Positions 12,690 through 25,432 of a DNA stretch of 64,000 nucleotides are shown piece after piece; within the stretch, counting starts at the first letter, position 1; each line of letters starts with the position of its first letter. The stretch lies in contig JANXBW010000015.1 of NCBI GenBank assembly GCA_025060325.1, forward strand, positions 1 to 64,000, written 5' to 3'. The stretch is from Thermoguttaceae bacterium (GTDB lineage: Bacteria; Planctomycetota; Planctomycetia; Pirellulales; Thermoguttaceae). The notes beneath the pieces were generated by a model. That model searched no databases. It saw only the letters and a list, made by a program, of their open reading frames with translations, and had not been told where the DNA came from. The position numbers and the translations under genes are program-made.

Positions 12690-13252
12690 CGCTGGCCAAC
12701 TCCCATCGCACGGCAGTTTTTTCGTCCACACATTTCAAGTTGGACCGGACGGCCCCTACTTCCGACAAGGGTGCTATCTCCAACGGCCAGCAAAAACGTG
12801 TCAACATCTCTTAAGAACCGACGCTATGGATCGGCTGCCTCTTTCAGCCCTGGTGCCAGCAAGAATACCCTGGGCGAAAGCTTCGGCCAATTTTCGCGCC
12901 CTCGGGTCCCTCTGGGAGAGTTACTGCCTCAGGCTTACCCGCCGCCACATGACCGAACGGCCGCGTTGCACGCCCTTCCGGCGTCGCGCTTGATAGGTCG
13001 ACATGAGCTCGTCTGCTGGGCCTCCCAGCTACTACATTGTTTGGGATTAGCAAAAAGGACGCGAGTGCCGAAATTTTTCGTAAAAGGTTTGTCCTTCCTA
13101 GTTGCTTCAGATTATCCCTTCTGACTGCAAATCGTGAGCTATATTTTCAACGGGGACGGCCTAGATTTCGCGAACATAAAGGACCGCATGGACAGAAAAC
13201 CGCCCGATAATCCCCGTTTCTCTTGGCCGGCAAATGCAAGGAGGATGGCGCA
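12690..13252. other. divergent intergenic stretch
   Basis: Region between the divergent sulfatase and Hpt genes, which should hold both promoters. I see no convincing small gene, no strong hairpin and no clear -35/-10 pair. Confidence 0.4.
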
Positions 13253-13612
13253 ATGGCAACCGTCGTGAACTGGCAGTACTCCGGTGCCACCGGGGTGGCC
13301 GACCCGATCTACTCGCCCCTTGCGAGTGATCCCGGGCTGCGAGATCTCCTCGAGCTTTTTGCTGCAACACTGCCTCAGCGATTGCAAAACCTAGAAAGGC
13401 TCGCGGATGAAGGGGACTGGGAGGGATTGCGGCGGCAGGCGCACCAGCTCAAAGGGGCGGCCGGCAGCTACGGCTTCGCTCCGCTTTCGGTGACTGCAGC
13501 CCAGCTTGAAACGATAGCGCGGCAAAATCCGGATCCGGAAAAGATTCGGCAGCTTCTCGACCAGCTGCGAGATCTAGCCAGCCGAGTTACTACCGAATCC
13601 CCAGGAATCTAA
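13253..13612 (+). CDS. stand-alone Hpt phosphotransfer protein
   Basis: A 119-residue histidine-containing phosphotransfer domain protein. The phospho-accepting histidine is H64 in RRQAHQLKGAAGSYGF, the canonical Hpt motif, placed in a four-helix-bundle-like sequence (about 28-115). Such proteins relay phosphate between a hybrid histidine kinase and a response regulator. No kinase or receiver gene is nearby, so the partners are unknown. The start is the ATG at 13253 with AGGAGG about 8 nt upstream; a TTG 30 nt earlier is also in frame but lacks such a site. About 27 extra residues precede the bundle. Cytosolic. Confidence 0.88.
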   Translation: MATVVNWQYSGATGVADPIYSPLASDPGLRDLLELFAATLPQRLQNLERLADEGDWEGLRRQAHQLKGAAGSYGFAPLSVTAAQLETIARQNPDPEKIRQLLDQLRDLASRVTTESPGI

Positions 13613-13930: not shown

Positions 13931-15328
13931 TTACCAGCCTTTGGCGGCAAGCCGAAGCGCCACTAGGTAAGGCACGGGTTCGGCGCCCAGGGCGTTGAGG
14001 ACAGTCCCACCGGCCGTAAAGTTGTGAGTCACCCAATCCGGCTGGCCGTATTTTTCTAGCGCAGTTCCGCCTTCACCCCCACCTACGAAGACCTTAATGC
14101 CGGCGTCCTTCATCCGCTTAAGCTGGCCCATGAAGTGCCGCGTGCCCTCCTCGAACCGGCTGTCCTCAAAGAGGCCAAAGACCCCGTTGTGGAACACCAC
14201 AGCCTTGTCCGGCGCCTGCCGGTTTTCGTTGATGAATCGCGAGACCACCTCTTCAAAAAGCGACCTGGTCTTCGGCCCGACATCCAACTGCTGATCCGAC
14301 GGGCCAATGGTCTCGGACACTCGGCCGTCTTGGAGGACAAAGTCCACCGGCAAGACGAACTGAATGCCTTTGGCTCGGCCTTCCCGAAGCATCCGCTTGG
14401 CCTGTTCGATCCGCTCAGGCGGAATGTACCAACCCTGGCTGGAGTTGGCGGGATCTTCCTGGACACCAATGCAGAAGTCACCGCCGTCAAGTTGAGCCGC
14501 CGCCTTCTTCAAGGCCATCGCCAACGATCCTGCGGTCAGGAGGTAGCGGATCTTCCCGCGGGCAATCATTGCCTCGAGGTCATCGAGCTTATCGATTTTT
14601 ACACCGCTGAAGATAACCATCTGAGCTTCGAGGCAATCGACGAGCGGGCCGCAGAATTCCTGCTCCTCATACTTCCCCATGGCGACCCGGTCCATGGCGG
14701 CTGGCACCACCACACTCGAGCTATCCAAGCTCCCCGCGGAAAAGGCCTCGTGAACATACACGCGGGCAATTTTCTCGGCCACCTCGTTGGCCAGCGTTGT
14801 AAGCGGCTCGACCAACTTGGGGATATCCTCCGGCTTAGCCTCCCAAAGAACCCGCTCGATGGCGTATTTACGAGTGTTTTCCAGCATGATGATCGAGCCG
14901 GGAGAAGCTTTGGCAATCTGATCGGCCGCCTCCGGCAAGACGCGGTTAGTCTGCGGATCGAGCCAATCTTTGATAAGGGCGACCGGGCAGCCAAGGATTT
15001 CCCCCACCCTAGCCGCCACTTTATCCAGAGAACCTTCCGGCTTTCGGCCGATGTGCCCGAAGATGATCTGGACCCATCCCCGCTGCCGACCGAACTCGAG
15101 CGTATCCTTCATCGAACGAAGCCGAATGTCCCCTTCGCCGACCTTAGGACCTGGCTTGGCGTCGACATCCCCACGGACAAGCACTCGAGTACCGGAGGGC
15201 ACATTGGCCAGGCTGTCAAGCTTGGGGATATCGGCCAGGTATTGCGGCAGTGAGAGCTTCGGCACGGAAGGGTCGGCTTTCAGGATAATCCGAAGCCACT
15301 TCTCCATGCGTTCGGTCGTGACCACCAT
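13931..15328 (-). CDS. pgk: phosphoglycerate kinase, divergent form
   Basis: A 465-residue protein, longer than the usual 390-415, homologous over its length to phosphoglycerate kinase, which interconverts 1,3-bisphosphoglycerate + ADP and 3-phosphoglycerate + ATP. Landmarks: RVLVRGDVDA (48-57, usual RVxVRVDFNVP), FGHIGRKPEG (90-99, usual SHLGRPKG, with H92 and R95 kept), IIMLENTRKY, a GVFGLFED loop and GGGEGGTALEKYG near the C-terminus. The substrate-loop Asn of RVDFNVP reads Asp here, and an extra N-terminal arm of about 40 residues is present. AAGGAG lies 8 nt before the ATG. It may be the sole glycolytic enzyme or a specialised paralogue; no other glycolytic gene is adjacent. Confidence 0.82.
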   Translation of the reverse strand: MVVTTERMEKWLRIILKADPSVPKLSLPQYLADIPKLDSLANVPSGTRVLVRGDVDAKPGPKVGEGDIRLRSMKDTLEFGRQRGWVQIIFGHIGRKPEGSLDKVAARVGEILGCPVALIKDWLDPQTNRVLPEAADQIAKASPGSIIMLENTRKYAIERVLWEAKPEDIPKLVEPLTTLANEVAEKIARVYVHEAFSAGSLDSSSVVVPAAMDRVAMGKYEEQEFCGPLVDCLEAQMVIFSGVKIDKLDDLEAMIARGKIRYLLTAGSLAMALKKAAAQLDGGDFCIGVQEDPANSSQGWYIPPERIEQAKRMLREGRAKGIQFVLPVDFVLQDGRVSETIGPSDQQLDVGPKTRSLFEEVVSRFINENRQAPDKAVVFHNGVFGLFEDSRFEEGTRHFMGQLKRMKDAGIKVFVGGGEGGTALEKYGQPDWVTHNFTAGGTVLNALGAEPVPYLVALRLAAKGW

Positions 15329-16017
15329 CGGCCTACTCCTTTCCCTTTGCTAAAAACAAAACACTCTTTGGCTCAGCAAGGACACCCCTGCTTTTAGGTT
15401 GTCCAATAAGATAGCACGCGACCGGCAAAACCGGTAGGACCCGGGGAAAAGGCCAGTTCGCAAAAAAGTGTGGCGATCGGTGCCCTAGAATGATCCCCCG
15501 GGGCAAAACTGGGCCAAATTTCCCACGCCACGGCGTACCACCTCCCGAGTCGCCCGAGACGCACCCCGTTGCCGGTGTCCAAGTGAAGACAGACGCGGGA
15601 ACACCTGGGCCCTAACGTAAAGGAGCAAGTGGGCGGTAATCGAACGGTTAACCAAGAATCTAGGCGGTGTCCTCGCCCCTTCCCACCCCGTGTCGCTTGC
15701 TTGCTTTGCCCAATCTGCCCAATTAATATGAGGCGAGAGACCGCCCCGAAGGGGCCTTTTTAAGCCCCAATAGATCGGCAATCGGCCAGGAACGCTGATT
15801 GCGGAGGAATAAGCTACGCTTGCGATAAGGGGTCCAGTTTCGCTTTTAAAACGTCGTGACGACTTTTTGCGGACCGGGCGCCCTTGTTGTTACGGGCATT
15901 AGACTCGTGGGCTTCGGTTAATACATGCAGATGTTCACAAAGGCAAATATTTAAGCGGGTTTTCCGCTGAGACCGAGGAACAAAGGCTTCCTTTAAAGCT
16001 TGTGGAGAGAATTGCTT
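15329..16017. other. divergent intergenic stretch
   Basis: Separates pgk (minus) from the DUF1598 gene (plus). It holds the attenuator-like hairpin at 15743-15768 listed separately. No gene seen; short frames overlap without family signal. Confidence 0.45.
15743..15768 (+). promoter_or_regulatory. mutually exclusive hairpins with T tract (attenuator-like)
   Basis: GCCCC (15743-15747), loop GAA, GGGGC (15751-15755), then C and TTTTT (15757-15761) looks like a short intrinsic terminator on the plus strand. The same GGGGC can instead pair with GCCCC at 15764-15768 across an 8-nt loop that contains the T tract. No gene precedes it on this strand, and the DUF1598 gene starts about 250 nt downstream, so it could attenuate that transcript. 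This is inferred from pairing only. Confidence 0.35.
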
Positions 16018-17412
16018 ATGTCGACGCTTTTGAGCCATCTCGGTCGGCCGGCATTGTGGGTGTCTTTTGCGGCGTGTTTTCTTTTCCTGACAATCTCGGA
16101 TGCAGAGGCGCAGCAACAAGGTGAAGGACAGATCGCAGGGGTAAGTATTGATGCCGAGGGGGTCCTCCGTCATCAGGTGTACCCTGACCCGACGGGGATG
16201 TTGACTCGGGAGCGGATGGCGGCCGCCCGCGCCACTTTGCCGCCCGAGGTCGCCCGGGCAAGCAAGCTCCGGAAGATTTCGCTCACTCGGTTGGAGAAGG
16301 CAATTATCGCCAACGGTGGCGTGCCCACTGACGAAATGAAGTATTTGGCCGGCCTGCTTCGGGTGCGATACGTGTTCTTCTACCCGGAGACAAAGGATAT
16401 CGTTATCGCCGGCCCGGCCGAAGGGTGGCGATTCGACTTGGCTGGGCGAGCAGTGGGACTAACCAGTGGGCGGCCAGTCATTTTGCTTGAGCATCTGGTG
16501 GTGGCACTGCGGGCATTCCCACCGGGCGGCGAGCCCACGGAGCTCATCACCTGTTCGATTGATCCGACCCCCGAAGGACTGGCCAACGCCCAGCAATTCC
16601 TTAAGACTTTGGGGCGGTTTATCCCCGCGGGAACTGAAGCCGCCGTGGCCCAGTACATGGCGGAGAATCTCCGAACAGCTGTTGGCCTGCAAAAGGTCAC
16701 CATTCGGGGGGTGCCGGCGGATACCCATTTTGCCCACATTTTGGTGGAGGCGGACTATCGCATGAAGATGATCGGCATTGGCCTTGAGCCGCCGCCGGTA
16801 CGGATGGTGACCTTTATCGACAAAGCTAGTCCGTCTACAGTCTCCCGCGAGCTTCTAGTCCGTTGGTGGTTCGTGCCGGACTATCAGTGCGTACGGCGAA
16901 GCGAAGATGGACTGGCAATCGAGCTGGTTGGTAGCGGTGTCAAACTCGTCGGTGAGGATGAATTGGTAAGCATGGAGGGTGATCGGCAGGCAACCGGCCG
17001 AGCCAATCCCGCCAGCCAAGCGTTTACGACGAGCTTTACGAAGATGTACCCGGCCATTGCCGAGCGATCGCCGGTCTTCGCTCAGCTTCGCAACCTCATC
17101 GACTTGTGCGTGGCTGCCGCGTACATTCAGAAGGAGGACTTTTACGGCAAAGCCGAGTGGAAGATGGAATTTTTCGGCGACGAAAGTAAGTTTGCCGTCA
17201 GGACCTATCCTGCACCGAAGGCAGCTCCTACCGCCGTCAACGCTTTGGTCAAGCGATCGCAAGTGATGACACCGTTTGGCGGCGGTGTGGAAATCGAAGC
17301 TCAGAAGGCCCTCCTACCGGAAAACCTGCTGGCCGATCCTAAGGGAGAAGTCAACAAGGTTCGCGAGGAAATCCGTGCTCAACTCTCCACCGACCATTGG
17401 TGGTGGGACTAA
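16018..17412 (+). CDS. exported DUF1598 protein
   Basis: A 464-residue protein with an N-terminal signal peptide (about 1-32, ending DAEAQ). The mature part matches DUF1598: an acidic/Val-rich lead (IAGVSIDAEGVLRH), KISLTRLEKAIIANGG, then YLAGLLRVRYVFFYPETKDI, VIAGPAEGW, TSGRPVILLEHLVVALR and SIDPTPEGL. The family is, as far as I know, planctomycete-restricted and of unknown function; export suggests a periplasmic or envelope role. The ATG at 16018 has GGAGAGA about 8 nt upstream; a TTG six codons earlier is less likely. It is followed by a good terminator at 17434, so it is monocistronic. Confidence 0.85.
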   Translation: MSTLLSHLGRPALWVSFAACFLFLTISDAEAQQQGEGQIAGVSIDAEGVLRHQVYPDPTGMLTRERMAAARATLPPEVARASKLRKISLTRLEKAIIANGGVPTDEMKYLAGLLRVRYVFFYPETKDIVIAGPAEGWRFDLAGRAVGLTSGRPVILLEHLVVALRAFPPGGEPTELITCSIDPTPEGLANAQQFLKTLGRFIPAGTEAAVAQYMAENLRTAVGLQKVTIRGVPADTHFAHILVEADYRMKMIGIGLEPPPVRMVTFIDKASPSTVSRELLVRWWFVPDYQCVRRSEDGLAIELVGSGVKLVGEDELVSMEGDRQATGRANPASQAFTTSFTKMYPAIAERSPVFAQLRNLIDLCVAAAYIQKEDFYGKAEWKMEFFGDESKFAVRTYPAPKAAPTAVNALVKRSQVMTPFGGGVEIEAQKALLPENLLADPKGEVNKVREEIRAQLSTDHWWWD

Positions 17413-17621: not shown

Positions 17622-19802
17622 CTACGAGGAGGAGGTAACCAGCGCCCCGTTTTCGCATCGCTCGGAAGCTTGGGCGGTCTGCACGGCCAGCTCTAAGGTG
17701 ACGAGCCAGCGGCCGGCACTATCCGGAAGGACCCGCCAGTGGGGCACCACCGCCACTGATTGATAAACAAGCTCAAAACCGGCCTCCGAGCCGTTGACCG
17801 TTCCCACCGGATATGTCCATAAACCAGCCGGACGGCTTGTCCGCAAGGTCAGATCCAGGCCGAGCCATTGGTCCACCACCGATATCTCGGTCTGGTGCGG
17901 CAAGCTAAGCACCGTTGATAAATCCCCAAGGATCTGCCCGTCGCCATTTCGGTAGAAGCGGTCCGGCACCCCCGGCGGTAACCCGGCAAAGTTCAGTTCC
18001 ACCGCAAATTCCCAGGGGCATTCTGGGGGCAGATTCTCAAGGAGGTAGGCCACCTCCACAACGGGACTGCCGGCCGAGAGAGTAATCGCTTTTGTCAACC
18101 GGATCACCTGGCCGGACACACTCCCCTCCCGGGTCATCGTCAGCCGGACGCGGTCGGCACGTCGCTGGATTTTCGCCTGATATTCCCCCGTGGCAAAATC
18201 GCCAAGTTGTTCAAATTGCTGATTCGCGAGGGTTTCCGCCCTCAAACCGGCCGGCAAGAACAGGTCCACAAGTGCCTTACGGGGATATTGGTCGTAAACA
18301 ATTGCCTTATCGAGGCCCTCCTGTTTGAAGACAACAATGTCGTGGATGCTAGCGACCTGCCCAGCCTGTTGCTCGGCACGCTTTAGAACCTTATGGTGAT
18401 AACCCTCGGGCCGCCGAGTCATTGTGCCTAAAAGGTTATGATGGACGGAGCGGACATCCATCTCGTAAATATGCCCGCCCACCACTGGCGCCACATAAAG
18501 CACCAACTTGTCGTTGGCCAGGCGAACCTCCGGTCGAGCGTCGAAATTGAAATCCTCAACCCCATCCTCCACCCAGGCCTCCGGCTTTCCCTCGGCCTGA
18601 TCTAAGCACTGCTCGGCCAAAATAAGTTGACGATACACGGCATGACGGAGATGCGGCAGATAAATCCCGCCGAATGCCCCGTGCCAGTACGCGCAGTTAC
18701 ACTGGCCCCGGTAAAGTTCCCGCCGAGCACGGTGGAGCCATTCCTTCCGCTCCGGCGGCATCGCCTTGGTCGACAGCTCCATAAGCCGTCGACTGATGCC
18801 TAGCATGCGGGAGTACATTTCGTTGGATTCCGGGTATTTGACGCGGAAATTGCGCCAAAAACCACCGCGAATGAACGGCCGAAGCCGCGCCCACTGAGAA
18901 GCTGCCCCAAGTTCGTGCCCCAGATGCTCAAGTTCCAGTTGGCGCTTCGGCGGAAGCGCCCACTCCGTCATTTCGCGATAAGAACAGTCGGGCAAAAAAA
19001 TTCGCCCCATAGGCGGAACGGCCTGGAATGCTTCTCCTAGTGTGCAAACCTCAAGCCAGTCCGCATTCTCCAAAAGTGCCGTAAAGAATCTCTCAAGCCA
19101 TTTGTCCTGATAGACGTGTTTATACGTCATCGGCCAAGTGCCGAATTTCTCGCCGTCATCGCCGAAGACCACGACGGCCTTGGGATGACGCTCGCCCGCA
19201 TGGCGAAGATAGGCCAAGGTCTCGGCCGGCTCGCGGAAGGGAATGCTGTAGCGTAACCGTTCGCTGCCGGGAAAGATCGACAAGATCCGCCCTTCATCCT
19301 CGGTGACAAAATGGCCGAAAAGCTCGTCTTCTTCCAAGCCGGCTGTCTTGAAATGGAAATCATCCAAAACGGTGTAGCGAATTCCCGCGTCAACAATATC
19401 CCGGGTAAAACTCTGTTCCCAAACGCGCTCGGCTACCCACATCCCGCGAACAGTGGTCTGGAAGCGTTCTTCTAAGAACTCGCGATAAGCGGCAATTTGG
19501 CCGATGCGGTCGTGCGTGGGGATCATCGCAAGGATTGGTTCATAAAAAGCTCCGCCGATGATCTCGATTCGGCCGGCACGAACTAGCGCCGCTAGGCGGT
19601 CGATGTAGTCGGGATGGTGCTGCTCCAGCCATTCGAAAAGGGGCCCACTTATGTGCAGGCTAATTCGCAAAGGCGGGAAACGCTCAAACACTTCCAAAAA
19701 AGGAAGGTAACTACGTTGATAAGCATCCTCGAATACGTGGTCGAAATTTCCCACCGGTTGGTGGTTGTGGATCAAAAGAACTAAGCGAACAGGTCGAAAC
19801 AT
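17622..19802 (-). CDS. GH57 4-alpha-glucanotransferase (DUF1925/DUF1926 type)
   Basis: A 726-residue enzyme of the Thermococcus litoralis-type GH57 4-alpha-glucanotransferases, which cut alpha-1,4-glucan and transfer the piece to another glucan or glucose. Motif 1 is LLIHNHQPVGNF near the N-terminus. The nucleophile is E125 in GMWVAERVWE, and the acid/base lies in VVFGDDGEKFGTWP (D215/D216); both are close to E123 and D214 of the T. litoralis enzyme. Later parts match the central DUF1925 domain and the C-terminal DUF1926 beta-sandwich. The longer frame starts 45 codons upstream, but the family begins at MFRPVRLVLLIHNHQP, so 19802 is chosen. It is last in the co-oriented glgA-amylase-galT block. 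Confidence 0.9.
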   Translation of the reverse strand: MFRPVRLVLLIHNHQPVGNFDHVFEDAYQRSYLPFLEVFERFPPLRISLHISGPLFEWLEQHHPDYIDRLAALVRAGRIEIIGGAFYEPILAMIPTHDRIGQIAAYREFLEERFQTTVRGMWVAERVWEQSFTRDIVDAGIRYTVLDDFHFKTAGLEEDELFGHFVTEDEGRILSIFPGSERLRYSIPFREPAETLAYLRHAGERHPKAVVVFGDDGEKFGTWPMTYKHVYQDKWLERFFTALLENADWLEVCTLGEAFQAVPPMGRIFLPDCSYREMTEWALPPKRQLELEHLGHELGAASQWARLRPFIRGGFWRNFRVKYPESNEMYSRMLGISRRLMELSTKAMPPERKEWLHRARRELYRGQCNCAYWHGAFGGIYLPHLRHAVYRQLILAEQCLDQAEGKPEAWVEDGVEDFNFDARPEVRLANDKLVLYVAPVVGGHIYEMDVRSVHHNLLGTMTRRPEGYHHKVLKRAEQQAGQVASIHDIVVFKQEGLDKAIVYDQYPRKALVDLFLPAGLRAETLANQQFEQLGDFATGEYQAKIQRRADRVRLTMTREGSVSGQVIRLTKAITLSAGSPVVEVAYLLENLPPECPWEFAVELNFAGLPPGVPDRFYRNGDGQILGDLSTVLSLPHQTEISVVDQWLGLDLTLRTSRPAGLWTYPVGTVNGSEAGFELVYQSVAVVPHWRVLPDSAGRWLVTLELAVQTAQASERCENGALVTSSS

Positions 19803-20188
19803 GACTTTCTGACTTCTTGCCTGTGGGCAAATCTGTGTGCTCAGGATCAACCTGGGCGGAAGTCCCTCACCCAACCCAGGCAATTTCGGCCGGCACCTTC
19901 CGTGAAGAAGCCTTTTCCCTATTTCCGCGAATGACAATTATGGCGCGTTTTCCGATTGTTGCGCACGCAGGAACTTCAACTAAAGCCGCGTCGGACCGGC
20001 ATCCTTCTTAAGTCCGTCTAACGAAAGCTTGCCGTCGGAAAGCCAGAGGTAGTTTTGCCAGGAGAGTTGCCCGTCAGCCGCCTGACGCCGGCGGCTCACT
20101 TTCTGCCCGGCTCTAGGAACCGGCCCGTGCGACTTTGCGCTGCCTGTTTATTTTCTCTAATCGAACTACTTCCCGGCGGCGGTTCAGT
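19803..20188. other. gene-free stretch
   Basis: Between galT and the downstream 4-alpha-glucanotransferase gene. A 7-bp inverted repeat (AGCCGCC/GGCGGCT, about 20074-20094) and a 6-bp one around the galT stop (20179-20200) are present; neither has a T tract. No gene seen. Confidence 0.4.
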
Positions 20189-21220
20189 TTATCTAACCGC
20201 AACTCTTTCAGGTTCCCAGGTCTCAGTCTCCACTTCCCGCAGGAACCGGGCAGCTTCTTCCGGTGGGACGGGATTTATGTAGAAGCCGGTTCCCCATTCG
20301 AAGCCCGCTGGCCGCGTCAAGCTCGGCATGATCTCGATATGCCAGTGATAATGCGGCAGCTCCTGCGTATCGAAGGGGGCCGTATGCAAGATGTAATTGT
20401 ATGCCGGCCGATCTAGCGCCGCCTCCAGCTTGAGGATCACCGTCCGCAAGATGCTGGCTAAATCCTCGACACCGGCCGGCTGAATATTTTCAAAGTGACT
20501 GCCGTGGACTTTCGGGAGGATCCATGTCTCGAAGGGGAACCGACTGGCAAACGGGCAGAAGGCCACGAAGGTCGGAGAATCGTGCACCAAGCGCTTTTCC
20601 GTAGCCAGCTCCTGCTGAATCATGTCGCAATAGACGCACCGGCCGCGATAGTTATAAAACTCAAGCGAGCCGGTCATCTCCTCCCAAACATTGATGGGCA
20701 CAATCGGTGTCACAATAAGCTGGCTATGGGTATGCTCCAGCGAGGCACCTGCCGCCGCCCCCACATTCTTGAAAACCATCCCGTAGACTAGGCGGCGATC
20801 GCGCTTAAGATCAGTCAGCCGGTCCCGATAAGCCCACAACACTTCTTGAAGCTCAGGCTCGCTTAGCTCGGCCGTGCTGATCAGGTGTCGGGGTGATTCG
20901 ATAATGACTTCATGGGCACCCACGCCGCGCATCATGTCATAGATGCCCTCACCCCGTTTGTTCAGATCGCCTTCGATCTCAAGGGCGGGAAATTTATTGG
21001 GCACCACCCGCACTCGCCACCCCGGTCCATTAGGAGGAGTCCCCGGCCGACGGTAAGCGATGATCTCCGGCGGCGTTTTGTCCTCCTGGCCCTCACAAAA
21101 AGGGCAAAAGCCGCCAGGACGGCGGGCTGGCGATGTGTCAAAGTCATGGGGTCTACGGGCCCGACTTTTCGCCACGATCACCCAGCGCCCAACAATTGGA
21201 TCCTTTCGCAAATCAGGCAT
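20189..21220 (-). CDS. galT: GalT-family nucleotidyltransferase (galactose-1-phosphate uridylyltransferase)
   Basis: A 343-residue HIT-superfamily transferase that swaps UMP (or, in one branch, AMP/phosphate) on hexose-1-phosphates. Zinc ligands C39 and C42 (FCPFCEG), H112 and H163 are placed as in E. coli GalT, and the nucleophile is H165 in LEHTHSQLI (HxHxQ). A second HxH motif near the C-terminus ([10 protein letters not shown]) is typical. It lies inside an alpha-glucan gene block rather than with galK or galE, so it may serve glycogen metabolism, for example as a UDP-glucose or ADP-glucose pyrophosphorylase/phosphorylase-like enzyme; this is inference. Cytosolic. Gaps to both neighbours exceed 300 nt. 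Confidence 0.88.
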
Positions 21221-21535
21221 GGCACTCCTTCCCGCTAGCTGCGATCTTCTGCGAGTCTCTTTGGTTTCGGGAAATGCTCCACCGAGTTTCCGAGGCAGAG
21301 GCTACCTTCAAGGCGTGGCCTAAAGAATTTGCGACAGCTTTTCGCAATCCCACGAGCTACCCTGGCCCAATGGGAGAGACCGAGCCCCGGCACGCGGCTA
21401 TTGGGGGGTGCTTACGCCCGGCAATTCCGGCTTGACCACCCATAGCAACTTTAAAGCCCCTCCGTAGAGGGGATTCGCTAGGAAGTAAAGGCCCTCAAGT
21501 TTGGCAGAAAAAGAAAAATCACCCGACAAGGGGGA
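21221..21535. other. gene-free stretch
   Basis: Between the GH57 amylase and galT. It contains only the hairpin at 21450-21472, listed separately. Confidence 0.4.
21450..21472 (-). terminator. terminator-like hairpin after the GH57 amylase
   Basis: A perfect 6-bp stem (CCCCTC 21457-21462, GAGGGG 21467-21472) with a tetraloop is followed on the minus strand by CTTTAAAGTT. The T run is short, so termination may be partial, allowing some read-through towards galT. Confidence 0.5.
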
Positions 21536-23731
21536 TTAGGCCTGCCACATGATAAGTTCGAATTCCGGTGGAGGCACCGCGGTTTCGATAGATCCCTCGG
21601 TGGGGACCCGCTCGACGGCCCGCTGCCGGTGCTTTAGTTCCAGGTAAAAATGCACCGGATCACCCGTTCCGGCTCCCAAGGCCCGAAGGGGCACGGCAAC
21701 CTCAAGTATCTGGTCGGCCGCCGCTTCCACCTGGGATTCGCTCTGCGTGGATTTGCCGCGGACCAACGTGGCCGTGGGACGCCGCTGATCGAGATCGCTC
21801 AGGATTATCTCCACATCCTTTGGCTGGACGAAGATGATGCGGATCAGATCAACCTGAGCAAAGCGCTCTCGAACCGGCCCGCCCCGACTGTCAACGCGTA
21901 AACAGAATCGGTCAGTTCCAAAGCCAAAGTAAACCGAGTCGACTAGCCCTTCCGAAGCCATCGACATCGCCCCTCGGCCACCCCGGGCGATGTACCGGCC
22001 AGCGTTGATCCATTCGAAATATGTCTGTCGACCATCCACTTTGACATTGAGAAGGCTCGTCGGCTGAGTGTGCGCCTCGACCTTTCGACCAAGCTTAATC
22101 GGTTGGGCAAGTTCCGGCGGCGGTGTTTCCCCCAGGGCGATGTAAACGTTCTGCAGATGTTTACGAAATAGCCTGTCGAAAAGCCCATCCTGGGCGCAGC
22201 TGTGGGAGTCGCCGAACCACCAGAACCAGTCACTCCCCTCGGCGATGTAAAGTTCCTCCCAAGCTTGCCGCAGCCGGTCGGCAGGAATCTTGCTCGATCG
22301 GGACCGCTCCACCAAGAAGCGCCGCGTCTCGTAAAGAAGGTCCCAAGCGCGATTGCATTCCGGATGCCCGATCCAAATCCCAAAGTTGTGCTGAATCCAA
22401 CTGCCAGGGAAAAGATGATTGAGCTTATCTGTGGCCGGGTAGCGCGTCAGGTAATCTTCGATCCTGACGGGCGTGATCTTGGGATGGGCAACCACTCTGC
22501 GATAAAGAAGCCGGAGGAAATCCACACCCTGATTGGGGTAATATTCCCAGCAATTCTCTCCGTCAAGAATGATCGGAAGGAGCGTGGGACGGTGCCCGGC
22601 ATTGCCACCCGTGGCTCGCCCAATGGCTTCCACTTTGCCGATAAAGTCCCCTACCGCTTCTTCGGCCGAGCACCGCTGATAGTGGAAGCCGATTAGGTCG
22701 CTCATGGCGTGGTCGCGGAAGACCACCTGAAGCTGTTTCCCGGCCTCTTCCACCCGCCAGGGCCGATACAGCATCTCCGGATTGCGGTGATAGCCGTTAA
22801 AATCGCGGGAAATCCACCCGTCTGTCGAGCAAGAAAGGATCTCCTCGTCGGTGGCGATCCACCAAATGCCAGCCTCGGCAACCAACGGTATCATCGCCTG
22901 GCAGACGGAACCTTCGGACGGCCACATCCCCCGAGGCCGACGCCCAAAGACTTTTTCGTGGAATTCTACAGCCCGGCGGATATGCTCGGCCGCATCCTCG
23001 GGATAACCGTCTAGATATTGGGGCAGGAACACCTCCGGCATCGCCCGGCGCGCAAGCCGCTTGTCAAGGAGCAACGGCACAATCGGATGGTAAAAGGGGG
23101 TGGTGGTGAGCTCGATTTGTCCACGGTCTTCAAGCTCTTTATGGAGAGGAATAACCTCCCGGAGGATGGCCAGTTGCTTATCCAAAAGCCACTGCTTTTC
23201 CGCCTCCGTGTACAGTCGACCCTTGGCGCGGAATTCCGCCAGTTCCGGGTCGCGCTCGAAAGCAATCGGATGGAACCACACCAAGTTGGACCATACCTGT
23301 AGGTCGATGATATCCCGCTTGCCAAACCGCTTCCGAGCCCGCTCGGGAGGATCGACAAAAAAACCGCGTTTTTTGTAAAGCTCAAAATACCGCGGATAAG
23401 GCCGGATCATGTGGTCCGGGTGGACCATGAAAAAGTTATCCAGCATCCAGTGGAAATCTTCCTCAGAAAGAGAGTCGGGAGGAGTGCGCGAGATCCGCAA
23501 ATGCGTGTCCTGATGTCCCCGCTCTGTGTACGCCTGGATCTGCACGATAAGGCTGGGCACCAAGTTGATAGTTGCCCGCATTTCCGGAATTTCTTTAAGG
23601 AGCATCGCCATGCCCCAGTAGTCTTTGACCCCGTGGAGGCGAACCCAGGGCATGGGATTTTCCTGGCCGATGTCATCCGGATAGTAGGGCTGGTGCTGAT
23701 GCCAGAAGATGGCCAGAGCGACTTCGTGCAT
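21536..23731 (-). CDS. GH57 alpha-amylase/amylopullulanase-like glycoside hydrolase
   Basis: A 731-residue GH57 enzyme, expected to hydrolyse alpha-1,4 (possibly alpha-1,6) glucan. Motif 1 is FWHQHQPYY (9-17). The nucleophile is E273 in PRGMWPSEGSV, and the acid/base is D390 in IILDGENCWEYY; both contexts match the amylopullulanase-like GH57 branch. The last about 200 residues form a beta-rich C-terminal domain (FEWINAGRYIARGG, then a segment like a glucodextranase-type accessory domain). No signal peptide, so it is probably cytosolic and acts on stored glycogen. It is co-oriented with glgA upstream (about 190 nt) and galT downstream. Linkage specificity is not decidable from motifs. Confidence 0.88.
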   Translation of the reverse strand: MHEVALAIFWHQHQPYYPDDIGQENPMPWVRLHGVKDYWGMAMLLKEIPEMRATINLVPSLIVQIQAYTERGHQDTHLRISRTPPDSLSEEDFHWMLDNFFMVHPDHMIRPYPRYFELYKKRGFFVDPPERARKRFGKRDIIDLQVWSNLVWFHPIAFERDPELAEFRAKGRLYTEAEKQWLLDKQLAILREVIPLHKELEDRGQIELTTTPFYHPIVPLLLDKRLARRAMPEVFLPQYLDGYPEDAAEHIRRAVEFHEKVFGRRPRGMWPSEGSVCQAMIPLVAEAGIWWIATDEEILSCSTDGWISRDFNGYHRNPEMLYRPWRVEEAGKQLQVVFRDHAMSDLIGFHYQRCSAEEAVGDFIGKVEAIGRATGGNAGHRPTLLPIILDGENCWEYYPNQGVDFLRLLYRRVVAHPKITPVRIEDYLTRYPATDKLNHLFPGSWIQHNFGIWIGHPECNRAWDLLYETRRFLVERSRSSKIPADRLRQAWEELYIAEGSDWFWWFGDSHSCAQDGLFDRLFRKHLQNVYIALGETPPPELAQPIKLGRKVEAHTQPTSLLNVKVDGRQTYFEWINAGRYIARGGRGAMSMASEGLVDSVYFGFGTDRFCLRVDSRGGPVRERFAQVDLIRIIFVQPKDVEIILSDLDQRRPTATLVRGKSTQSESQVEAAADQILEVAVPLRALGAGTGDPVHFYLELKHRQRAVERVPTEGSIETAVPPPEFELIMWQA

Positions 23732-23923
23732 CCCTGCAGATCCTTTTCGTCCGTGCTCTTATAACGTGGATGGTGTGGCCTAGGCTGACGAAAAGTACCC
23801 CGCCTTACCTTGCCCCATCAAGCAAATCGCTGTGAACCACCAAACGCGGCAGGAATTTGCCGGAGTTTTTCTTTGGCCAAGGCGCTCGTTCCACCCGAAC
23901 TGGAGAAGCGACTCCTCCCAAGC

Positions 23924-25432
23924 TCACCCAGCTCTTGCAAGCTCGCGCAGCATCGACCGATGTCGGTCGATTACCCACTGGTAGACCTCGACGTACTTTT
24001 GGGCACTTCGTTTCCAAGAAAAATCCTGCTGCATGCCGGTCCGGGCCAATTGCCACCACAAATCTTTGTTGCCGAAAGCGGCAATCGCCCGCTCTAAGCC
24101 CCCGGCTAGACCGTCCACAGAGGCCTCTTCGAAAACAAAGCCGGTGGCCCGACCTGCCGCCACATTTTCCGGCGTGGCATCCACCACTGTATCTTTTAGC
24201 CCGCCTGTGCCCCGCACCACCGGGATCGTTCCATAAAGTTGGGCATACATTTGGTTGAGACCACAAGGCTCAAACCGGCTGGGCATAGGGAAAATATCGG
24301 CACCGGCAATGATCCGGTGAGCAAGCGGCTCGGAAAACTCGATCCGCACGACAACCTTGTCAGGAAAATCCCTGGCCAAGGAGCGGCACGATTCCTCAAT
24401 CTCCGAATCCCCTTCTCCCAAGATGACCCACTGGATCGGCCGCCACGGAGCCCACTGGCGAATTAGTTTGGCCAGGATGTCGGATCCTTTTTGATCCACC
24501 AATCGTCCGACACTGGCCATCACAATGGCCCCCGGGTCAACGGGAAGGCCTAACTCTTTTTGCAACTCGGCCTTACAGACGGCCTTCCCTTCGGCCACTG
24601 TGGTGACGTCGTATTGCCGCGGTAAGAAGCGGTCGGTGGCCGGGTTCCACTGCGTCGTGTCCACACCATTGAGGATGCCGAAAAGCGAGTCGCTCCGGTG
24701 CTGGAGTAGCCCCTCCATCCGACAGCCGAATTCCGGCGTCTGGATGTCTTGCGCGTACTGAGGACTGACGGTGCTGATCGCCGTGGAGTAAACAATCCCG
24801 GCCTTAAGGAAACTTAGATGACCAAAAAACTCCAGTTCCCGCCAATTGAAATGCTTCCAGTCCAGCCCAGTGAGAATCATGTCCCAATGCCAGAAAACAC
24901 CCTGGTAAGCCATGTTATGAATGGTGAAGAGGGTACCGATTTGCCGGTATCGAGGCAACGTCTGATATTCCAGCCGCAGATAAGCCGGTACCAGTCCCGA
25001 TTGCCAATCGTGGCAGTGAAGCACGTCGGGGCGAAGATCAAGGAGACGAATGACCTCTAAAACGCTGCGGCAAAAAAAGACGAATCTTTCGCAGTTGTCC
25101 AGGTAGTCGTTGCCCCCTTCGTGGTAAAGATCATCACGATCATAGTACTGATCTTGCTCAACAAAGATGACCCGAACCGGGCTATTGGGAATATGGCTTG
25201 CCGCCAGGCGGCCTGTCACCGTTTTTGTGCCGATTGGCACCACGTAGGTGATTCCCAAGGGCTCTAGCGGAAATCCCCCATACCGGACACACCGGTAGAG
25301 GGGCATAATCACCGTCACTTCGTGCCCCATTTTGGCAAGGACTGGGGAAAGCGTGCCGCAAACGTCGCCAAGGCCTCCGGTCTTGGCAAACGGGACGGCT
25401 TCGCTGGTGGCAAAAACGATTCTCAAATTCAT
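23924..25432 (-). CDS. glgA: glycogen synthase (ADP-glucose type, GT5)
   Basis: A 502-residue GT5 synthase that elongates alpha-1,4-glucan from ADP-glucose. The N-terminus MNLRIVFATSEAVPFAKTGG carries the KTGGLGDV nucleotide-sugar loop (17-24). Further landmarks are DVLHCHDWQSGLVP, a central VGRLVDQKGSDIL and the retaining-enzyme motif FPMPSRFEPCGLNQMYAQLY with its GTGGLKDTV continuation. A longer frame adds 36 residues without homology; the family start and the adjacent GAGGAGA favour 25432. It is first in a loose four-gene alpha-glucan series on this strand. No GlgC or GlgB is in the window. Confidence 0.94.
   Translation of the reverse strand: MNLRIVFATSEAVPFAKTGGLGDVCGTLSPVLAKMGHEVTVIMPLYRCVRYGGFPLEPLGITYVVPIGTKTVTGRLAASHIPNSPVRVIFVEQDQYYDRDDLYHEGGNDYLDNCERFVFFCRSVLEVIRLLDLRPDVLHCHDWQSGLVPAYLRLEYQTLPRYRQIGTLFTIHNMAYQGVFWHWDMILTGLDWKHFNWRELEFFGHLSFLKAGIVYSTAISTVSPQYAQDIQTPEFGCRMEGLLQHRSDSLFGILNGVDTTQWNPATDRFLPRQYDVTTVAEGKAVCKAELQKELGLPVDPGAIVMASVGRLVDQKGSDILAKLIRQWAPWRPIQWVILGEGDSEIEESCRSLARDFPDKVVVRIEFSEPLAHRIIAGADIFPMPSRFEPCGLNQMYAQLYGTIPVVRGTGGLKDTVVDATPENVAAGRATGFVFEEASVDGLAGGLERAIAAFGNKDLWWQLARTGMQQDFSWKRSAQKYVEVYQWVIDRHRSMLRELARAG

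Follow-up and report, generated by a model that had tools for sequence, protein, structure and literature searches.

Why does a gene of the GalT family stand in the middle of an alpha-glucan block, without galK or galE for company? The question is raised by a 64,000-nucleotide stretch of DNA from a Thermoguttaceae bacterium (assembly GCA_025060325.1, contig JANXBW010000015.1, positions 1 to 64,000), the whole of which we call the window. Four open reading frames on its minus strand run in the order glgA, an amylase-type GH57 gene, the GalT-like gene and a GH57 4-alpha-glucanotransferase gene, with gaps of 192, 315 and 386 bases between them. Order, range and domain calls agree with a preliminary description of this DNA, which had read them as consecutive genes on one strand and had remarked on the missing galK and galE. 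A Pfam scan of the four genes and eight neighbours (one of the eight without an assigned family) likewise found neither, the search for galE being confined to these genes; galK lies elsewhere, on contig C11. Taking sequence and gene context together, we consider the product of the GalT-like gene likely to be a bacterial ADP-glucose phosphorylase, with a reaction of type Enzyme Commission (EC) 2.7.7.36.

Sequence relatives and marker residues

A phmmer search of Protein Data Bank (PDB) sequences places the GalT-like protein closest to the Arabidopsis ADP-glucose phosphorylase At5g18200 (1z84, E 9.4e-79; its mutant 2h39, E 2.3e-77), well ahead of an archaeal GalT (6k5z, which we take to be from Pyrobaculum; E 4.7e-41), E. 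coli GalT (E 2.9e-24) and human GALT (E 3.7e-17). Window and plant proteins share about 36% identity over their Foldseek alignment. In named genomes the closest match is 92% identical, and the top matches come from metagenome-assembled genomes of Thermoguttaceae and Pirellulales. We divided the homologues into clade I (at least 54% identity to the window protein) and clade II (36–51%).

Six positions separate this group from GalT. R71, H103, an acidic residue at 104 (E or D), R134, N275 and W293 occur in the Arabidopsis enzyme and in every one of the 90 clade I sequences; each is also found in 26 or 27 of the 27 sequences of clade II, and the eight GalT-type sequences lack all six. The plant and window proteins also share the stretch FExGTGxYIN, whose last residue, N316, is kept in all 90 sequences of clade I and in 26 of the 27 of clade II; it was rejected as a clean marker, one GalT-type sequence (GT_G079) carrying it as well. 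The active site has the form HxHxQ (H163, H165, Q167), with H165, presumably the nucleophile, aligned at the place of the catalytic histidine. The motif reads HTHSQ, in keeping with HxHSQ in the plant enzyme and departing from the HPHxQ of GalT (HPH in 8/8 GalT-type sequences). It is a weak marker alone, because proline at the second position also occurs in 4/90 clade I and 16/27 clade II sequences. Two sets of residues, C39, C42, H112 and H163, and C195, C198, H239 and H292, are common to the window protein and the Arabidopsis enzyme and are candidate zinc ligands, which we assume to form two zinc sites. Likeness to GalT (E. coli 1hxp, 1hxq and 1gup; human 5in3; 6k5z) extends to the fold, the catalytic HxH..Q, a CxxC in most and an equivalent of E308.

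Tree and structure comparison

The maximum-likelihood tree comprises 126 sequences: 80 from the relative loci described below, 40 from genomes of the phylum (4 of them GalTs), the window protein, a second GalT from the same genome (contig C66) and four PDB sequences. A 118-sequence bipartition unites the Arabidopsis enzyme with all 117 bacterial homologues and leaves the eight GalT-type sequences outside, with an ultrafast bootstrap (UFBoot) support of 100.

An AlphaFold model built from a 37-sequence alignment (mean predicted local distance difference test score, pLDDT, 73.9; predicted template modelling score, pTM, 0.76) adopts the two-domain GalT/HIT fold. Foldseek ranks the Arabidopsis structures 2h39 and 1zwj first (E 8.5e-25 and 9.0e-25), ahead of archaeal GalT (E 2.9e-21). 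A DUF4931 protein and Ap4A phosphorylases (4qvu, 3ano and 4i5v) share the wider fold of HIT-type phosphorylases and transferases and match much more weakly, with Z scores of 17.2, 10.1 and 9.8.

Gene neighbourhood in relatives

We confirmed 547 relatives in named genomes and analysed the best 80 of these 547 loci. A gene for GlgA, an amylase-type GH57 enzyme or a 4-alpha-glucanotransferase lies within 5 kilobases (kb) on the same strand in 66 of the 80; glgA does so in 46, and all three in 25. Where more than 5 kb is available on both sides (38 loci), the corresponding counts are 29, 22 and 13. Nine of these roomier loci have none of the three genes, and in seven of the nine (L057, L059, L060, L061, L064, L076 and L078) a histidine kinase and a response regulator adjoin the gene; L048 and L068 lack this pattern. 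The window order recurs in many planctomycete loci, which excludes an arrangement unique to this genome and makes the block more than a chance association. Loci from other lineages differ: in nine of them (L066, L069, L070, L072, L073, L075, L077, L079 and L081) the gene directly precedes glgA. With glgA found both upstream and downstream of the gene, the linkage has probably been re-formed.

Linkage and co-occurrence were also counted in 199 genomes sampled evenly across the phylum. For 27 of 45 clade I genes, glgA is no more than 5 kb away on the same strand; for 5, glgC is equally near on either strand; and for 29, at least one of the two is so placed; by the same distances, 7 of 27 clade II genes are near glgA, 5 near glgC and 10 near either. 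These counts leave out ten weaker or fragmentary rows (G000:C66, G019:C5, G079, G003:C163, G125, G192:C109, G004, G158 and two pieces of G188:C108) and merge two pieces from G171. As a crude estimate, chance alone would bring an arbitrary gene this close in far fewer than 1% of genomes. Two clade II homologues of the same family, in G119 (L091/L161) and G165 (L093/L162), both at 49% identity, are separated by 89 and 166 bases from a glgC of the same orientation, which gives a further type of connection to ADP-glucose.

Co-occurrence points the same way. glgA is found in 56 of the 63 genomes with the GalT-like family and in 70 of the 136 without it (p 1e-7), glgC in 58/63 and 67/136 (p 8e-10). 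For galK there is no association with the family across these genomes (24/63 versus 66/136, p 0.22). Related genomes are not independent, and all these p values are therefore too small.

Galactose and glycogen genes elsewhere in the genome

The window genome (G000; 4.78 Mb in 89 contigs, 95.6% complete) carries its second GalT-family gene on contig C66, with an HPHCQ motif, a TIGR00209 score of 298.1 bits and E. coli GalT as its best solved match (E 5.5e-72). Sought beyond the window, glgC was found twice, on contigs C18 and C33, and contig C36 encodes a short-form alpha-glucan phosphorylase (TIGR02094, 838.9 bits) that a PF00343 search at E 1e-20 missed. With a canonical GalT, galK and two glgC on other contigs, neither galactose use nor ADP-glucose synthesis obviously depends on the GalT-like gene. 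Two candidate roles were rejected for this genome: that of a glgC substitute, since two glgC are present, and that of sole phosphorolytic route, given the phosphorylase on C36.

These genes also bear on the reading of the GalT-like protein as a second classical Leloir GalT, exchanging UDP-glucose and galactose-1-phosphate and merely adjoining the glycogen genes. The protein does pass the TIGR00209 cut-off, and fold and family (PF01087/PF02744) are those of GalT, but no solved GalT comes as close to it as the ADP-glucose phosphorylase of Arabidopsis, and its HTHSQ counts against a Leloir enzyme, if slightly. The lack of co-occurrence with galK, the canonical GalT on another contig and the absence of Leloir genes from the scanned part of the locus argue in the same direction, and we regard a Leloir function as quite improbable.

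Proposed reaction and alternatives

The proposed enzyme would interconvert ADP-glucose and inorganic phosphate with glucose-1-phosphate and ADP, beside glycogen synthase. Homology to both GalT and the plant enzyme predicts a ping-pong course: ADP-glucose would be bound, H165 of HTHSQ would attack its alpha-phosphate and become adenylylated, and glucose-1-phosphate would leave; the AMP would then be passed to inorganic phosphate and ADP released. Phosphorolysis of ADP-glucose is downhill by textbook energies, and we therefore read the enzyme as a putative outlet for ADP-glucose next to GlgA, opposing GlgC at times when glucan synthesis has to halt or run in reverse. The ADP-glucose that GlgC makes would be returned to glucose-1-phosphate with the anhydride bond conserved in ADP, while the two GH57 enzymes would trim alpha-glucan chains and join them anew. 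Gene content, homology, marker residues and conserved linkage are what the data show; the substrate, the direction and physiological role of the flux through the enzyme, and co-transcription of the block are what we infer.

A phosphorylase of the same mechanism could instead take UDP-glucose as its substrate, alone or alongside ADP-glucose, and feed glucose-1-phosphate. GalT ancestry is uridylyl, and in four loci (L071, L076, L078 and L080) the gene stands before a histidine kinase, a response regulator and galU, an order that would suit UDP-glucose. Nevertheless, most of the linkage and co-occurrence is with glgA and glgC, both genes of ADP-glucose metabolism, the protein retains the marker residues found in the plant enzyme, and the four genomes with galU loci (G208, G213, G215 and G217) all have glgC, three of them with glgA; we think activity on UDP-glucose rather improbable. 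The preliminary description had guessed at a link from ADP- or UDP-glucose to glucose-1-phosphate. The ADP half of that guess gains from the nearest solved relative, the tree, the marker residues, the linkage to glgA and glgC, the missing galK association and the separate GalT, and the UDP half is not favoured.

The reverse direction would make the enzyme a supplier of ADP-glucose from glucose-1-phosphate and ADP, releasing inorganic phosphate and rendering glgC dispensable. Four of 21 genomes, all with loci of other lineages (L066, L073, L079 and L081), fit this in having the gene beside glgA and no glgC match at E 1e-40, but incomplete genomes could explain the missing glgC. The window genome has two glgC, 58 of the 63 family-bearing genomes of the phylum have glgC, and from textbook energies the reaction should favour ADP and glucose-1-phosphate. 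A supplier role seems highly improbable. The same four loci may have another source of ADP-glucose, or their genomes may be incomplete.

Several results weigh against the assignment as ADP-glucose phosphorylase, the galU order among them. The protein passes the NCBIfam GalT equivalog model TIGR00209, if weakly (113.9 against a cut-off of 102.1 bits), and this marginal pass would explain a possible naming as GalT by annotation pipelines; it fails the GalT model NF008724 (PRK11720; 132.1 against 448 bits), as does the C66 GalT (328.4). The Arabidopsis enzyme sits on a long branch, its exact place among the bacterial subclades having a support of 69. VIA-align gives the same Z of 29.1 for archaeal GalT 6k5z and Arabidopsis 2h39, and structure was dropped as a discriminator between the two functions, being neutral towards the interpretation. 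Of the 45 clade I genes, 16 have no glgA or glgC within 5 kb, some of these 16 being near contig ends. Such unlinked genes occur in five genomes of the window's class (G024, G087, G105, G137 and G194), two of which, G024 and G105, are single contigs. G167, which alone represents the window's family in the set, carries no closer homologue than one at 47% identity, about 41 kb from glgA.

Two-component genes beside the gene in relatives

A recurrent module in relatives consists of the GalT-like gene, with or without glgA, then genes for a histidine kinase of the PAS/GAF kind and a single-domain response regulator, with glgC often next. It is seen with glgC in L147, L149 and L155 and in L059, L060, L061 and L064 (Scalindua/Brocadiaceae), and without an adjoining glgC in L127, L165 and L166. 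The L061 response regulator has as its nearest solved relative 3a0r/3a0u (E 3e-30), which we take to be Thermotoga TrrA. We counted 42 response regulators that share 46% identity or more with the L061 protein. For 22 of them, glgC is no more than 0.5 kb away in the same orientation; 21 precede glgC and one, in G106, comes after it. Seventeen of the 42 lie within 8 kb of a GalT-like gene, and 27, in 26 of 30 genomes, are near glgC or a GalT-like gene. This count leaves out 4 of 46 rows: G182:C88, G195:C78 and G088:C1:1187815 (36–40% identity), and a 63-residue piece from G122 (70%). The arrangement suggests two-component control of ADP-glucose synthesis in relatives, of which a single literature query found no published account. 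The window genome itself has no response regulator match at E 1e-22, and its kinase matches are generic only (27–34% identity).

In the galU loci a galU-like gene replaces glgC after the response regulator; that of L076 scores 362.8 bits with TIGR01099, and the others are 86–87% identical. L078 and L080 are titled Deltaproteobacteria, and L071 and L076 unclassified bacterium or proteobacterium.

A possible phosphorylase equivalent

Running backwards, GlgA might form ADP-glucose from glucan and ADP, pulled by a low-Km (Michaelis constant) ADP-glucose phosphorylase that would convert ADP-glucose and inorganic phosphate into glucose-1-phosphate and ADP. Together the two enzymes would amount to a two-step, ADP-catalysed equivalent of glycogen phosphorylase. 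In lineages that have both but no recognised alpha-glucan phosphorylase, they could be the main phosphorolytic exit from glycogen. In many relatives of the window this exit would also be controlled by a two-component system of its own, a PAS/GAF histidine kinase with a single-domain response regulator, encoded before glgC. As a whole we hold this scheme to be unlikely.

Phosphorylase was scored as present if PF00343 reached at least 170 bits or the TIGR02094 cut-off was passed, with one weak TIGR02094 match on each side scored as absent (G029, E 1.7e-17; G102, E 1.6e-18). By this measure it is absent from 11 of 40 glgA-bearing clade I genomes and from 4 of 86 other glgA-bearing genomes (p 5e-4); all but one of the eleven have a completeness of 89% or more. 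At family level the difference is 9/22 versus 3/31 (p 0.017). It is only a lead, since inclusion of clade II gives 9/29 versus 3/24 (p 0.19, not significant). These counts weakly support replacement of glycogen phosphorylase by GlgA and the GalT-like enzyme in some lineages. The window genome, having a phosphorylase, would not depend on such a route.

Comparison with known systems

Phosphorolysis of ADP-glucose is an activity already known in plants. PMC4136846 describes the plant enzyme as phosphorolytic, gives it a Km of 7 uM for ADP-glucose and places it in the cytosol, unlike the bacterial gene with its place in glycogen clusters. According to PMC6329318, the closest Arabidopsis GALT homologue acts rather as an ADP-Glc phosphorylase, and a 2024 review (PMC11066809) calls the function of the plant enzyme, whose structure is solved, unknown. 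The literature searched, in which subscription journals are thinly covered, yielded no account of ADP-glucose phosphorylase activity in a bacterial member of this family, and the predicted cluster-borne bacterial enzyme appears to be new. The term ADP-glucose phosphorylase is applied to GlgC in three papers (PMC8158581, PMC6226537 and PMC8084333).

As in E. coli-type glg clusters, for which PMC8158581 lists glgB-glgX-glgC-glgA-glgP, the window block keeps glgA together with glucan-modifying enzymes. It differs in having an ADP-glucose phosphorylase-like gene and two GH57 genes beside glgA, with glgC and phosphorylase on other contigs.

If the assignment is true, a widespread bacterial family that would pass as GalT by hidden Markov model score would move to ADP-glucose metabolism, and glycogen turnover in bacteria would gain a step. 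The neighbourhood of the gene in bacteria suggests a function for the plant-type enzyme and makes that function testable. It also raises the question of whether glycogen can be broken down by way of ADP-glucose.

Features of the locus

Table 1 Coordinates of the block, of two sites in the GalT-like protein and of nearby genes, in window positions
Feature	Position	Strand	Evidence or remark
glgA, ADP-glucose-type glycogen synthase, 502 residues, ATG start	23924..25432	-	TIGR02095 552.8 bits (cut-off 328), E 6e-166; PF08323
GH57 amylase-type enzyme, 731 residues	21536..23731	-	PF03065 E 1e-53; closest solved GH57 chains 9iht/9kyq, E 2e-77
GalT-like protein, 343 residues, proposed ADP-glucose phosphorylase	20189..21220	-	PF01087/PF02744; 1z84 match; tree; marker residues; gene context
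H-T-H-S-Q, GalT-like residues 163-167	20720..20734	-	H165 aligned with the His that is Gly in Arabidopsis chain 2h39
GalT-like residues 307-316	20273..20302	-	Arabidopsis counterpart FEIGTGCYIN; F307 in 0/8, N316 in 1/8 GalT-type sequences
GH57 4-alpha-glucanotransferase, 726 residues, ATG at 19802	17622..19802	-	PF03065, PF09094 and PF09095 (PF09095 E 8e-85); solved 4-alpha-glucanotransferase 1k1w, E 1.9e-132
DUF1598 protein	16000..17412	+	PF07643
Phosphoglycerate kinase family gene	13931..15328	-	PF00162 163.6 bits
Stand-alone histidine phosphotransfer (HPt) domain protein	13223..13612	+	PF01627 E 7e-19

Promoter-like sites are at chance level (4 against 2.9 in shuffled sequences). Terminator-like sites number 22 against 11.5 in shuffles; they are mostly intragenic and were not used. 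The DUF1598 gene adjoins the 4-alpha-glucanotransferase gene on the opposite strand, the phosphoglycerate kinase family gene near the block encodes 465 residues against a profile of 379 positions, and the HPt protein is encoded a few genes away from the glycogen block.

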